Shown here: positions 1 to 6,727 of the stretch, in pieces
Layout: the number at the start of each line of letters is the position of its first letter
Numbering within the stretch: position 1 is the stretch's first letter
Notes under the pieces: model-generated
What the model saw: the letters and a program-made list of their open reading frames with translations, nothing else
The model's database searches: none
Told to the model about the DNA's origin: nothing
Position numbers and translations under genes: made by a program
From: a virus
Strand: one strand, 5' to 3'
DNA length: 29,351 bases
Virus record (IMG/VR): IMGVR_UViG_3300023106_000023
Location: 1 to 29,351 of that record

Positions 1-2505
1 GAGCAGGAACTGCTGCGCGAGCGCACATACGAGATGACCAACGGCCAGGTGCAAAGCGCCAGCAAACGCGACCAGCTGCTGCTGCATATCCTGGAGAACT
101 ACGGCGTGGACCTGCCCGACATGCAGAAGTCCACATTGGAGCGGCGCATCGCGGATCCCGACTTGCCCGAAGGCCTCAAGGAACTGCTGCGCGTGCGCCT
201 GTCGACCGCTACCACCAGCACCAGCAAGTACCAGGCCCTGCTCAACTGCGTCAGCAGCGATGGCCGGCTGCGCGGCACGAAGCAATACTGCGGCGCCGCG
301 CGCACCGGGCGCTGGGCCGGCCGTCTGTTCCAGCCCGACAATCTACCTTCTCGCGGCCTCATGCCCGAGGACCAGATAGAACTAGGCATTCAGGCGCTCA
401 AGGACGGCACCGCCGGCCTGTTGTTCGGCGACGTGATGTGGCTCACCAGCTCGGCTATTCGCGGATGTATCGCGGCGCCGCCTGGCAAGAAGCTGGTGGT
501 GGCCGACCTGTCGAACATCGAGGGGCGCGGACTGGCCTGGCTCGCCGGTGAGAAGTGGAAGATGAAGGCGTTCGCCGAGTTCGACGCCGGGCGCGGCCAC
601 GACCTGTACGCGCTGGCATACGCCAAGTCGTTCGGCGTCTCGCCCGAGTCGGTGATGGAAGACAAGAAGGCCGGCGGCATCCAGCGTCAGGTCGGGAAAG
701 TTCAAGAGCTCGCCCTAGGGTTTCAATCCGGCGTCGGCGGATTCTGCACCTTCGCAGCGGCCTACGGTATCGACTTGGAAGATCTGGCCGCGCAGGCGCA
801 GCGCCACATACCCGGCGAGGTGTGGGGCCAGTCGTCGATCATGCTGGAATGGCACCGCAGCAAGGGCCGCGACCCGGCGGCGCAGTACGGGCTGTCGGAC
901 CGCGCATGGCTGGTGTGCGAGTCGTTCGTCCTCGGCTGGCGTGCCGGCCACCCCGCGATTAAAGACTGGTGGCACGACCTGGAAGACAAGATGCGCCAGG
1001 CGATCACGAACCCCGGCACCACCTACCAAAGCGGCAAGGTGAAAATCCGCCGTGACGGCGCGTGGATGCGCGTGGTGCTGCCGTCGGGCCGTGCGCTCTG
1101 CTACCCCGGCCCCGCGCTGGTGGCCGAGCGCAAGAAGAAAGACGAGACGGAAACGGCCGACGTCGAGACCGTGCGCGCGGTGGAGTCGGACACCGGCGAC
1201 GGGCGCACTTCGGTGAGCTATCTGGGCATGAACCAGTACAGCCGGAAGTGGTCCCGCATCCATACATACGGTGGCAAAGGGGCGGAAAACTGTCTGACTG
1301 GAGACACCGAAGTGTTGACCATGGTGGGCTGGTGTCGCATTGACGAAGTAGAGGATATCCCAGTGTGGGACGGCCATGAATGGGTCGAGCACGACGGTTG
1401 TGTTTATAAAGGTAATCAGTTAGTATTATCAAACTACGGCGTAAGGATGACGCCGGATCATTTGGTTCTAACTGAGAAAGGATGGCGGAATGCATCATCG
1501 TGCGAGGGACTTGACCGGGCAGACGTTGGGCTACCTGACGGCTATACGGTACATCGGATCGGAGAACGGGCGCCGGTCTATCTGGGAAGTGAAATGCAGC
1601 TGCGGTGTGCTCAAGCCTATGCAAGCCTCGGAATTCCTCAAGCAGCAGAAGCGCGGCATCGTGGCGTCGTGCGGGTGCATGCGGAAGGCGACGATCGGGG
1701 CGAGGAACGTTACCCACGGTATGAGCCGGCACCCGGCGTTTGCAGTGTGGCGCAGCATGTGCGACCGCTGCCACTTGGCGACGCACCAGGCGTATCACAA
1801 CTATGGTGCGCGGGGCATTACTGTCTGCGATACCTGGCTGGAATCCTTCGAGGCGTTCTGGGCCGACATGGGGCCGACGTACGCCACCGGGCGATCGATC
1901 GAGCGCAAGGACAACGCGCAGGGGTACAGCCCCGAGAATTGCCGATGGCAGTCAATGCGGCGGCAAGCGAACAACAAGCGCACCTCGCGGCTGATCGATA
2001 CCCCGATGGGGCGCATAACAGTGTCGCAGGCGGCGCGCCGGTACGGGATCTACGTCGGGACGCTGTACTACCGCCTGGACCACGGGTGGCCGGTGCTGAA
2101 GGCGCTCAACCTGTCTACGACCTGATGAACTGCGGGCCGCGTCACCAGTTCGTGGTGCGCGGCACCGACGGTCAAGCGCTGATCGTCCACAACTGCACCC
2201 AGGCCACCGCCCGCGACGTTATGGCCCACAACATGCCGCTGATCGACGGTGGATACTTTGACGGCGAGGAATTCATCGACGGGCTGCGCGCACTGGAGTT
2301 GCACGGCGAGCGTGACGACCGGCCCGAGCACCTGCAGGGCTATGGCATTGTCCTAACCGTTCATGATGAATGCGTGGCCGAGACCCCCGATGACCCCCGC
2401 TACAACGCCGAGCACCTGGCCGCGCTGCTGTGCGCACCACCACCATGGGCGCCGGACATGCCGCTGGCCGCCGCCGGCTTCGAGTCGTACCGCTACAAGA
2501 AATAA
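1..2505 (+). CDS. Family A (Pol I-like) phage DNA polymerase, C-terminal part, interrupted by an intein; 5' end outside window
   Basis: Template-directed DNA synthesis for phage replication. The frame is open from base 1, so the gene starts upstream and the ATG at 34 is internal. Visible family A hallmarks are motif A (VVADLSNIEGR, near 500-530), a motif B-like stretch (RQVGKVQELALGFQSGVGGF, near 690-740) and motif C (VLTVHDECVAETP, near 2353-2390) with the catalytic His-Asp. Between motifs B and C the extein reads GGKGAEN, then CTQATARD after the insertion, matching the conserved GGK..EN..QA.ARD block of the family. A 301-codon intein (1291-2193) splits this block, leaving 430 N-extein codons in the window and 103 C-extein residues. 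The gene ends at TAA 2503-2505, directly before promoter copy 1. Any exonuclease domain would lie upstream and cannot be seen. Splicing is probably required for activity because the intein separates catalytic motifs. Confidence 0.93.
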   Translation, partial: EQELLRERTYEMTNGQVQSASKRDQLLLHILENYGVDLPDMQKSTLERRIADPDLPEGLKELLRVRLSTATTSTSKYQALLNCVSSDGRLRGTKQYCGAARTGRWAGRLFQPDNLPSRGLMPEDQIELGIQALKDGTAGLLFGDVMWLTSSAIRGCIAAPPGKKLVVADLSNIEGRGLAWLAGEKWKMKAFAEFDAGRGHDLYALAYAKSFGVSPESVMEDKKAGGIQRQVGKVQELALGFQSGVGGFCTFAAAYGIDLEDLAAQAQRHIPGEVWGQSSIMLEWHRSKGRDPAAQYGLSDRAWLVCESFVLGWRAGHPAIKDWWHDLEDKMRQAITNPGTTYQSGKVKIRRDGAWMRVVLPSGRALCYPGPALVAERKKKDETETADVETVRAVESDTGDGRTSVSYLGMNQYSRKWSRIHTYGGKGAENCLTGDTEVLTMVGWCRIDEVEDIPVWDGHEWVEHDGCVYKGNQLVLSNYGVRMTPDHLVLTEKGWRNASSCEGLDRADVGLPDGYTVHRIGERAPVYLGSEMQLRCAQAYASLGIPQAAEARHRGVVRVHAEGDDRGEERYPRYEPAPGVCSVAQHVRPLPLGDAPGVSQLWCAGHYCLRYLAGILRGVLGRHGADVRHRAIDRAQGQRAGVQPRELPMAVNAAASEQQAHLAADRYPDGAHNSVAGGAPVRDLRRDAVLPPGPRVAGAEGAQPVYDLMNCGPRHQFVVRGTDGQALIVHNCTQATARDVMAHNMPLIDGGYFDGEEFIDGLRALELHGERDDRPEHLQGYGIVLTVHDECVAETPDDPRYNAEHLAALLCAPPPWAPDMPLAAAGFESYRYKK
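1477..1482 (+). promoter_or_regulatory. Ribosome binding site of the nested endonuclease gene
   Basis: AAAGGA lies 7 nt upstream of the ATG at 1490. The same bases encode Glu-Lys-Gly of the intein block B (TEKGW), so they are dual-purpose: splicing-domain codons and translation start signal. This decides the start at 1490. The only sense codons between the TAA at 1471 and 1490 in that frame contain no ATG, GTG or TTG. Confidence 0.7.
1490..2125 (+). CDS. HNH homing endonuclease nested out of frame inside the intein
   Basis: Predicted site-specific endonuclease of 211 aa that would cut intein-less polymerase alleles and drive homing. The order is a RDLTGQTLGYLTAI start typical of free-standing phage HNH proteins, Cys pairs C36-x-C38 and C61-x-C63 (likely zinc ligands), then THGMSRHPAFAVWRSM. 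The HNH core follows: NYGARGITVCDTWLESFEAF and SIERKDNAQGYSPENCRW, with N142 and N150. A C-terminal helix-turn-helix-like segment (VSQAARRYGIYVGTLYYRL) probably binds DNA. The gene is in frame 2 while polymerase and intein are in frame 1. Its ATG has an AAAGGA 7 nt upstream, and a same-frame TAA at 1469-1471 excludes a fused product. It starts just after block B and its TGA (2123-2125) lies within block F. Both ends look natural for the family, arguing against a sequencing frameshift. Family call is strong; homing role is inferred from position. Confidence 0.9.
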   Translation: MHHRARDLTGQTLGYLTAIRYIGSENGRRSIWEVKCSCGVLKPMQASEFLKQQKRGIVASCGCMRKATIGARNVTHGMSRHPAFAVWRSMCDRCHLATHQAYHNYGARGITVCDTWLESFEAFWADMGPTYATGRSIERKDNAQGYSPENCRWQSMRRQANNKRTSRLIDTPMGRITVSQAARRYGIYVGTLYYRLDHGWPVLKALNLSTT

Positions 2506-4227: not shown

Positions 4228-4260
4228 CTTGCACAAGTAAATACTTGCGTGTATAGTTCT
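4228..4260 (+). promoter_or_regulatory. Early promoter/operator repeat, copy 2 of 3
   Basis: Identical over 33 bp to copies 1 and 3. The -35 TTGCAC is at 4229-4234 and the -10 TATAGT at 4252-4257, with a 17-bp spacer. Homology with copy 1 extends a further 7 bp (TACATCG, 4261-4267). The first half-site is GCTTG here instead of ACTTG. It sits between the VRR-NUC stop and the gene at 4289, with a leader of only about 25 nt. Confidence 0.8.
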
Positions 4261-5293: not shown

Positions 5294-6690
5294 TCATCGT
5301 CCCCCGCGAGTTCACCGCCCGGCCTTACGGCAAAATAATGACCGACTTCATCCTCGACACCGAGCGCTGCGCTGCGTGGGCTGGGATGGGCCTCGGCAAG
5401 ACGGTCAGCACCCTCAACGCCGTGGACATCCTGCAGGCGCTCGACGACCGCCCGATCCTGGTCGTCGCGCCCTTGCGAGTGGCCACGACCACCTGGCCGG
5501 ATGAGGTGCGCAAGTGGAACCACCTGCGCCACCTGACCGTCTTGCCGATCACCGGCAGCGAGAAGGAGCGCATGCGCGCGCTCAAGTACGACGCCAACAT
5601 CCTGACTACGAATTTCGAACAGCTGCCCTGGCTTGTCGAGCACTACGGCGAGCGCTGGCCGTTCGCCACGGTGGTGATCGACGAGTCCACCAAGCTCAAG
5701 GGCTTCCGCCTGCGGCAGGGAACCCAGCGCGCCAAGGCCTTGGGCCGGGTGGCACACACGAAGATCAAGCGCATCGTCGAGCTGACCGGCACGCCGGCAC
5801 CCAACGGCCTCGAAGACCTGTGGGGGCAGGCGTGGTTCTTGGACAAGGGCGCGCGCCTCGGCCGCACGTACGACGACTTCAAAAAACGGTGGTTCCGCAA
5901 GAAGTACAGCGGCTTCGGCACCGAGCCGATGGAACACGCCCAAGAGCAGATCCAGCGCGCGCTGCGCGATATCTGCGTCACGATCGACGCCAAGGATTGG
6001 TTCGACCTGAAAGACCCGATCGTCAACAATATCTATGTCGATCTGCCCCCCAAGGCGCGCGCGCTGTACCAGGACATGGAGAAGCGCGCCTTCATGGAGA
6101 TCGCGGCCATGGGCACCATGCACGGCATCGAAGCGCTGGGTGCGGCGCAGAAGATCGGCAAGCTGCTGCAGCTGTCGAACGGCGCCGCCTATCTGTCACC
6201 GGGCAGTAGCGAATGGGCCGAGGTGCACGACGCGAAGATCCACGCGCTGGAGGACATCGTCGAGGAAGCGGCCGGCATGCCGGTGCTGGTGTCCATCCAG
6301 TTCAAGAGCGACCTGGCGCGCCTGCTCAAGGCCTTCGGCAAGGACGCCATCGCATTGAACAGCCAGGAGGGCATACGGCGCGCCCAACGCGGCGAGGGCA
6401 AGGTGTGGCTGGGCCACCCGGCCAGCATGGGCCACGGCGTCGACGGCCTGCAGGAGCACACCAACATCATGGCCTTCTTCGGCCACGACTGGAACCTGGA
6501 GCAGCGCCTGCAGATCATCGAGCGGATCGGGCCGACGCGGCAAATGCAGGCCGGGAAGGATCGGCCGATGTTTATCCACAACATCATCGCGAGGGAAACC
6601 GCAGACTCTATGGTCATCGAGCGGGTGGAAACGAAGCGCTCGGTGCAGGATATTCTGTTAGCGGCGATGAAGGCCAAGGGCTACGCATAA
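5290..6690 (+). CDS. SNF2/DEAD-type superfamily 2 helicase, 466 aa
   Basis: ATP-dependent DNA translocase or helicase, probably for replication or recombination. Visible motifs in order are Walker A GMGLGKT (residues 32-38), motif Ia ILVVAPLRV, Walker B VVIDEST (Asp131-Glu132), motif III LTGTPAPN (from residue 165), and in the second RecA domain GHPASMGHGVDGLQ and motif VI QIIERIGPTRQ (about residues 408-418). The motif set and short length of about 470 aa match SNF2-like helicases widespread in phages. The start at ATG 5290 (ATGA overlap) is chosen over the upstream open frame because the protein then begins at a natural MIIVPREFTARPYG. The gene closes module 2; promoter copy 3 follows after 4 nt. 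Confidence 0.93.
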   Translation: MIIVPREFTARPYGKIMTDFILDTERCAAWAGMGLGKTVSTLNAVDILQALDDRPILVVAPLRVATTTWPDEVRKWNHLRHLTVLPITGSEKERMRALKYDANILTTNFEQLPWLVEHYGERWPFATVVIDESTKLKGFRLRQGTQRAKALGRVAHTKIKRIVELTGTPAPNGLEDLWGQAWFLDKGARLGRTYDDFKKRWFRKKYSGFGTEPMEHAQEQIQRALRDICVTIDAKDWFDLKDPIVNNIYVDLPPKARALYQDMEKRAFMEIAAMGTMHGIEALGAAQKIGKLLQLSNGAAYLSPGSSEWAEVHDAKIHALEDIVEEAAGMPVLVSIQFKSDLARLLKAFGKDAIALNSQEGIRRAQRGEGKVWLGHPASMGHGVDGLQEHTNIMAFFGHDWNLEQRLQIIERIGPTRQMQAGKDRPMFIHNIIARETADSMVIERVETKRSVQDILLAAMKAKGYA

Positions 6691-6694
6691 ATAA

Positions 6695-6727
6695 CTTGCA
6701 CAAGTAAATACTTGCGTGTATAGTTCT
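6695..6727 (+). promoter_or_regulatory. Early promoter/operator repeat, copy 3 of 3
   Basis: Identical over 33 bp to copies 1 and 2. TTGCAC is at 6696-6701 and TATAGT at 6719-6724, with a 17-bp spacer. The five bases upstream (AATAA) match copy 1 but not copy 2, while the downstream flank (ACTCATG) differs from both. It drives the lipoprotein module that begins at 6771. Confidence 0.8.

Follow-up and report, generated by a model that had tools for sequence, protein, structure and literature searches.

The window, the whole 29,351-bp stretch of a virus record that was analysed here, opens with a DNA polymerase reading frame that runs without a stop from position 1 to 2505. This frame contains an intein, and the intein is overprinted by an HNH endonuclease gene in another frame of the same strand. 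The following features were found:

1 to 1290, plus strand: N-extein of a phage family A DNA polymerase (PHROG 17 DNA polymerase, 1e-50), its 5' end cut by the window edge
1291 to 2193, plus strand: intein in the polymerase frame, 301 aa, from Cys1 to His300-Asn301 (open frame, Mtu RecA mini-intein profile match at 2e-6, AF2 and Foldseek)
1291 to 1539, plus strand: N-terminal splicing half, blocks A and B, residues 1-83, with TxxH as TPDH at 1450-1461
1478 to 1482, plus strand: Shine-Dalgarno-like AAGGA, 7 nt before the HNH start, built from intein codons for E-K-G-W
1490 to 2125, plus strand: HNH endonuclease gene in the +1 frame relative to the intein, ATG to TGA, 211 aa (phrog_374 HNH endonuclease, 3e-52)
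1490 to 1549, plus strand: dual-constrained segment, read as ..ASSCEGLDRADVGLPDG in the intein and as MHHRARDLTGQTLGYLTA in the HNH protein, with excess intein-frame conservation
1543 to 2100, plus strand: intein-frame linker of about 180-186 residues, mostly disordered by prediction, its conservation almost nil except for the lack of stops
2101 to 2193, plus strand: C-terminal splicing half, blocks F and G (VYDLMNCGPRHQF ... IVHN), with the HNH stop codon at 2123-2125 inside block F
2194 to 2505, plus strand: C-extein of the DNA polymerase in open frame, its +1 residue a Cys

The intein is preceded by ...YGGKGAEN and followed by CTQATARDV..., and the joined extein flanks match intein-less phage polymerases, of which many exist, in a single piece. 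The N-extein also matched Pfam DNA_pol_A at 2e-6, which is below the gathering cut-off. The window carries Cys1, T54-P-D-H57 in block B, VYDL in block F at 2113, and VHN followed by C, that is, H300-N301 and the +1 Cys. These agree with the sequence features of a class 1 intein (Cys1, a block B TxxH, a C-terminal His-Asn and a +1 Cys, Ser or Thr), and C1, T54, H57, H300 and N301 were invariant in 35 aligned inteins. An earlier note on this DNA had read the polymerase frame as open through the intein blocks with all splicing residues intact, and both points were borne out. The AF2 model of the intein frame had the Hint fold, with pLDDT of 93-98 for residues 1-80 and 90-96 for residues 271-301, and all the top Foldseek matches were solved mini-inteins. 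For loop residues 85-265, pLDDT was mostly about 40. The intein frame is thus predicted to form a mini-intein fold with a disordered loop of ~180 aa. This is not the layout of a classical endonuclease-bearing intein, since the HNH lies in the +1 frame and the intein frame over those bases is predicted to be disordered. The element is an in-frame insertion at a conserved host motif and is absent from some relatives, namely the APSE phages with empty alleles and the intein-less phage polymerases.

The earlier note had also recognised a full HNH gene with its own start and stop, which we found together with a ribosome-binding site, and had placed it between intein blocks B and F. It does lie out of frame inside the intein; its extent is greater than that, as the stretch of its first ~20 codons also encodes conserved splicing-domain sequence (..SSCEGLDRADVGLPDG..) and the TGA falls within block F (VYDLM). 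The HNH gene thus spans the space between the conserved edges of the splicing domain and overlaps with each of them. The HNH protein folded well in AF2 (mean pLDDT 91). Its match to the I-HmuI profile was weak (E 0.035), a Foldseek search with the HNH model returned no significant match among solved structures, and a second alignment placed the HNH enzyme PacI at Z 4.6 over residues 76-162, a weak hit among unrelated rows. The position of the catalytic His of I-HmuI aligns to an Arg in the HNH protein; a putative nuclease activity is thus assigned from the family annotation and conservation.

Selection on the two frames was measured in 109 loci made non-redundant at < 80% nt identity, with a null obtained by shuffling HNH codons between synonymous positions. 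No stop occurred in the intein frame of 99 +1 loci, against about 641 expected, and none in the 10 +2 loci of the same set (32 expected), while the third frame of the 109 loci had 1292 stops against 1253 expected. A second +2 set of 52 non-redundant loci gave the same picture, with 0 intein-frame stops (177 expected) and 607 third-frame stops (645 expected). In 59 free-standing HNH relatives used as a control, the equivalent frame held 936 stops against 956 expected; only two of the 59 were stop-free, one being a truncated overprinted intein (L105) and the other a GC-rich gene (L128). The stop-free GC-rich control is what would be seen if a high-GC HNH gene left one alternative frame open by chance and the frame relation had no meaning, and the window alone says little against this, as 2.4 intein-frame stops are expected under synonymous shuffling and the probability of finding none is 0.07 (0.073). 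A single case would not convince, and the strength comes from the relatives: with the family-wide lack of stops, free-standing controls full of them and conserved splicing residues, we give chance practically no credit.

Identity in the intein frame differed along the overlap. In the core (HNH residues 21-194) it was near the shuffle null (e.g. 0.208 versus 0.197), whereas it reached 0.331 against a null of 0.207 over the first 20 HNH codons, a segment that aligns with the region after block B in the Mtu RecA mini-intein, and 0.175 against 0.131 at the end of the overlap. Constraint on both frames thus acts mainly at the edges; the loop serves as a spacer that chiefly needs to be free of stops. 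A functional conserved protein encoded by the intein-frame loop was considered and rejected, because core identity barely exceeds the synonymous-shuffle null and AF2 gives no confident fold there.

One relative used for comparison was a locus in a Novosphingobium MAG from Lake Pavin (L330), which is 92% identical and aligns without gaps over 2543 bp. Outside the overlap, its changes at polymerase codon positions 1/2/3 numbered 22/5/133 and fell mostly on polymerase third positions; inside the overlap the counts were 23/4/8 (Fisher P = 1.4e-9) and the changes fell mostly on HNH third positions. Over the same bases there were 10 amino acid changes in the HNH protein and 22 in the intein frame. 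This switch in codon position and the unequal numbers of replacements identify the HNH as the frame constrained at the amino acid level. Taken together, selection keeps the intein frame free of stops and the HNH frame at the amino acid level, with the loop sequence otherwise almost free; presumably, the intein frame is kept open because the polymerase is needed. As a separate observation, positions 1490-1700 of the window show no difference from this relative over 211 nt, although the rest of the overlap differs by 8%. This identity exceeds what dual coding of ~20 codons explains and may reflect recombination.

The same alignment bears on whether the HNH is truly in frame with the intein and was displaced by two compensating indels in assembly or sequencing. 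Such an event is conceivable in principle, as one phage record of 40793 bp (L326) has a single frameshift that puts the HNH into the N-intein frame and breaks the polymerase. The independent gap-free relative shows no compensating indels, and the same offset recurs in 98 further non-redundant +1 loci and in the isolates APSE-1, the Caulobacter phages and Shewanella SFCi1, so that an artefact has a negligible probability. Well over 150 relatives yielded no HNH that was both intact and in frame; the in-frame exceptions were the frameshifted record and an anomalous fragment at a contig edge (L232). Tests of both refuting cases that the earlier note had named, compensating indels and an in-frame HNH in close relatives, thus came out in favour of overprinting. 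In L326, the frameshift cuts off the polymerase after an N-intein/HNH fusion and may be either a sequencing error or a natural mutant.

Translation of the HNH was considered next to its start signals in 98 non-redundant +1 loci, 84 of which could be anchored by a D-x-T-G motif. When intein-frame codons were redrawn synonymously, an upstream ATG or GTG without an intervening stop was expected in 36.9 anchored loci and was found in all 84; a start combined with a Shine-Dalgarno sequence was found in 73 of the 84, against 20.7 expected. In many +1 loci with a CTG at the usual start, there is an ATG 12-15 nt before it. The start in the +2 group is less clear; candidates are an ATG or GTG ~77-98 nt from the beginning of the intein and a codon near 194. 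This uncertainty, the overlap of the frames and the position of the HNH N terminus next to block B would suit programmed frameshifting from the intein, which would yield an N-intein-HNH fusion and not a free-standing nuclease. In the +1 group, the conservation of ATG/GTG and Shine-Dalgarno sequences well above expectation and the ATGs upstream of CTG starts argue against frameshifting, and we regard it as unlikely. Still less probable is an HNH gene that belongs to an RNA intron within the intein. Group I introns often contain HNH genes, but the window has no Rfam match, the HNH ORF and the splicing halves fill the whole insert with no sequence to spare, and the intein frame is kept open, which an intron would not need.

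We consider it very likely that the locus is a mobile intein and that one DNA stretch is translated separately into two products. Translation in the polymerase frame would give a precursor in which the Hint halves flank a disordered loop of ~180 residues, and the intein would excise itself and join the polymerase halves. Internal initiation at the ATG or GTG, with a Shine-Dalgarno sequence supplied by intein block B codons, would give a free-standing HNH nuclease from the +1 frame. The nuclease would cut intein-less polymerase alleles, and repair would copy in the whole intein-HNH unit, as the presence/absence pattern and flank differences in APSE phages suggest. Later, the HNH may decay by deletion with the intein frame retained. 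This proposal agrees with the earlier note, which had described a single unbroken intein that an independent endonuclease gene overprints and had expected splicing to be uncoupled from mobility; the HNH's own start and ribosome-binding site support that view, with splicing uncoupled from nuclease expression.

The overprinted form is not a one-off: two polymerase sites and a helicase gene carry it, and the HNH is found in two different frames. Intein and HNH alignments, used to scan viral contigs, recovered large sets of relatives, mostly on metagenomic contigs, and a further scan used the N-terminal splicing block, which is free of bias from the middle of the intein. In nearly all loci of the latter scan, the intein frame ran without a stop as far as the host gene's end, and the HNH was out of frame; the N-block scan of genomes gave five loci. 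The frame goes with the site: it is +1 at the polymerase site YGGKLxEN followed by C and in the helicase gene, and +2 at the second polymerase site, RQxGKVxELA followed by C. Within the phage collection, APSE phages, four Caulobacter phages and Shewanella SFCi1 have the +1 form. The +2 form occurs in about 160 Jerseyvirus-type records from Salmonella, Escherichia and other phages, nearly all of them annotated as polymerase only. Overprinting of the intein by its HNH is the rule in a large phage family. The +1 overprinted intein in the helicase gene is carried by L035, L051, L079 and L089, and the SNF2-type helicase of the window has an intein-free motif at the same site (KLLQLSNGAAYLS, 6160-6198, plus strand). 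One contig (L026/L184) has a +1 overprinted intein at an unfamiliar motif, SGRFFKN followed by CTQGKRNTYVRV, possibly in a third host gene.

The mean distance between HNHs of the +1 and +2 groups was 0.75, against about 0.51 within groups, and the corresponding values for the splice blocks were 0.58 and about 0.50. In a tree, the +2 HNHs formed a long, supported separate branch, with free-standing rows that had been fetched with a +1 query and hence sampled with bias. The frame, the site, the distances and the tree branch suggest two separate HNH captures. Within the +1 group, splice-block and HNH distances were only moderately correlated (Spearman 0.28), and exchange between inteins and HNHs is conceivable. 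Going further, we think it somewhat probable that overprinted inteins form a class of homing element of their own, a recurrent one, in which phage mini-inteins captured an HNH out of frame at least twice (+1 and +2, at different polymerase sites), two unrelated proteins are kept in one sequence with one frame as an open, almost unconstrained spacer, and the element moved to a helicase gene with its frame relation kept.

Among APSE phages, an exact 918-bp unit is missing from four records and present in four compared records, in polymerases of 97-99% identity. The exteins share 95-99% and the inserts 99.6-100% of their letters. Agreement is lower in the 60 nt next to the site, where 49-57 positions match and Ile is replaced by Cys at +1. 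This presence/absence together with the flank differences fits recent homing with co-conversion. The small inteins L193, L217, L238 and L240 lack an HNH; they retain its beginning in the HNH frame, have lost the core and preserve the intein frame, and most also retain the C-terminal helix-turn-helix region of the HNH. They look like the decay stage of a homing cycle. The earlier note had suggested a possible intermediate in the capture of endonucleases by mini-inteins. This part is not supported: the relatives compared include none with an intact in-frame HNH, the small HNH-less inteins mostly look like deletion products, and the diverse, widespread family with its deletion derivatives points to a stable homing element with two uncoupled outputs and not to a transient form. 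An APSE-like copy in an Arsenophonus endosymbiont genome (L332) is damaged in both the intein and HNH frames and is apparently a decaying prophage remnant.

Like classical large inteins, whose endonucleases are LAGLIDADG and rarely HNH, the element combines a Hint splicing domain with a homing endonuclease between blocks B and F; unlike them, its endonuclease is encoded by a separate +1 (or +2) gene and forms no domain within the intein polypeptide. Separate translation is also seen for the free-standing homing endonucleases that lie inside or next to split inteins and group I introns, but these are not known to share bases with the coding frame of the splicing element. The nearest published case is the ShiLan domain (PMC11855218, Genes 2025 16:178), an out-of-frame HNH in a methylase in which no splicing motifs were found and whose authors think that the insert stays in the methylase. 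In both systems an insertion leaves the host gene open and encodes the HNH in a different frame, and presence/absence is consistent with homing (PMC11855218). The host frame here differs in being a complete intein that is predicted to be functional, so the element is not of the ShiLan type (an out-of-frame HNH with no splicing element). Moreover, no ribosome-binding site was detected for ShiLan (PMC11855218), whereas the Shine-Dalgarno sequence is conserved in the overprinted inteins.

The statement that known inteins carry their endonuclease in frame is a fair generalisation, but P45/P46 of APSE-1 are the same element as here, and the public record already annotates P46, as a shorter ORF, as an HNH CDS inside the P45 polymerase. 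Later APSE records omit P46 and call intein-less polymerases 'missing large internal portions'. Records L245-L248 describe theirs as 'partial, missing large internal portions'. L245-L247 lack precisely the intein-HNH unit, and L248 carries the unit under the same description. In the Ent1 and Ent2 records, the intein is annotated and the HNH is not. Searches of literature text turned up no account of an endonuclease gene that overprints its own intein; a preprint on non-canonical intein architecture (10.1101/2025.01.02.630785) may overlap, and priority is uncertain.

An intein can thus carry its mobility gene other than as a domain, which separates splicing from the dose of nuclease, and the locus clearly exemplifies a long overlap of genes on the same strand that selection maintains. 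The nuclease escapes annotation pipelines, as most of the ~160 Jerseyvirus-type records list only the polymerase over the HNH. With many natural examples, empty alleles, decayed derivatives and easily grown hosts (Caulobacter, Salmonella and Shewanella), direct tests of the homing cycle and of how far dual coding can go are within reach.

Elsewhere in the window, three exact 30-bp copies of TTGCACAAGTAAATACTTGCGTGTATAGTT lie in or beside intergenic gaps (2507-2536, 4229-4258 and 6696-6725, plus strand). The repeat reads as a sigma-70-like promoter (TTGCAC, 17 nt, TATAGT) with the palindrome-like AAGTAAATACTT in between, and the copies are perhaps a shared promoter with a repressor site.
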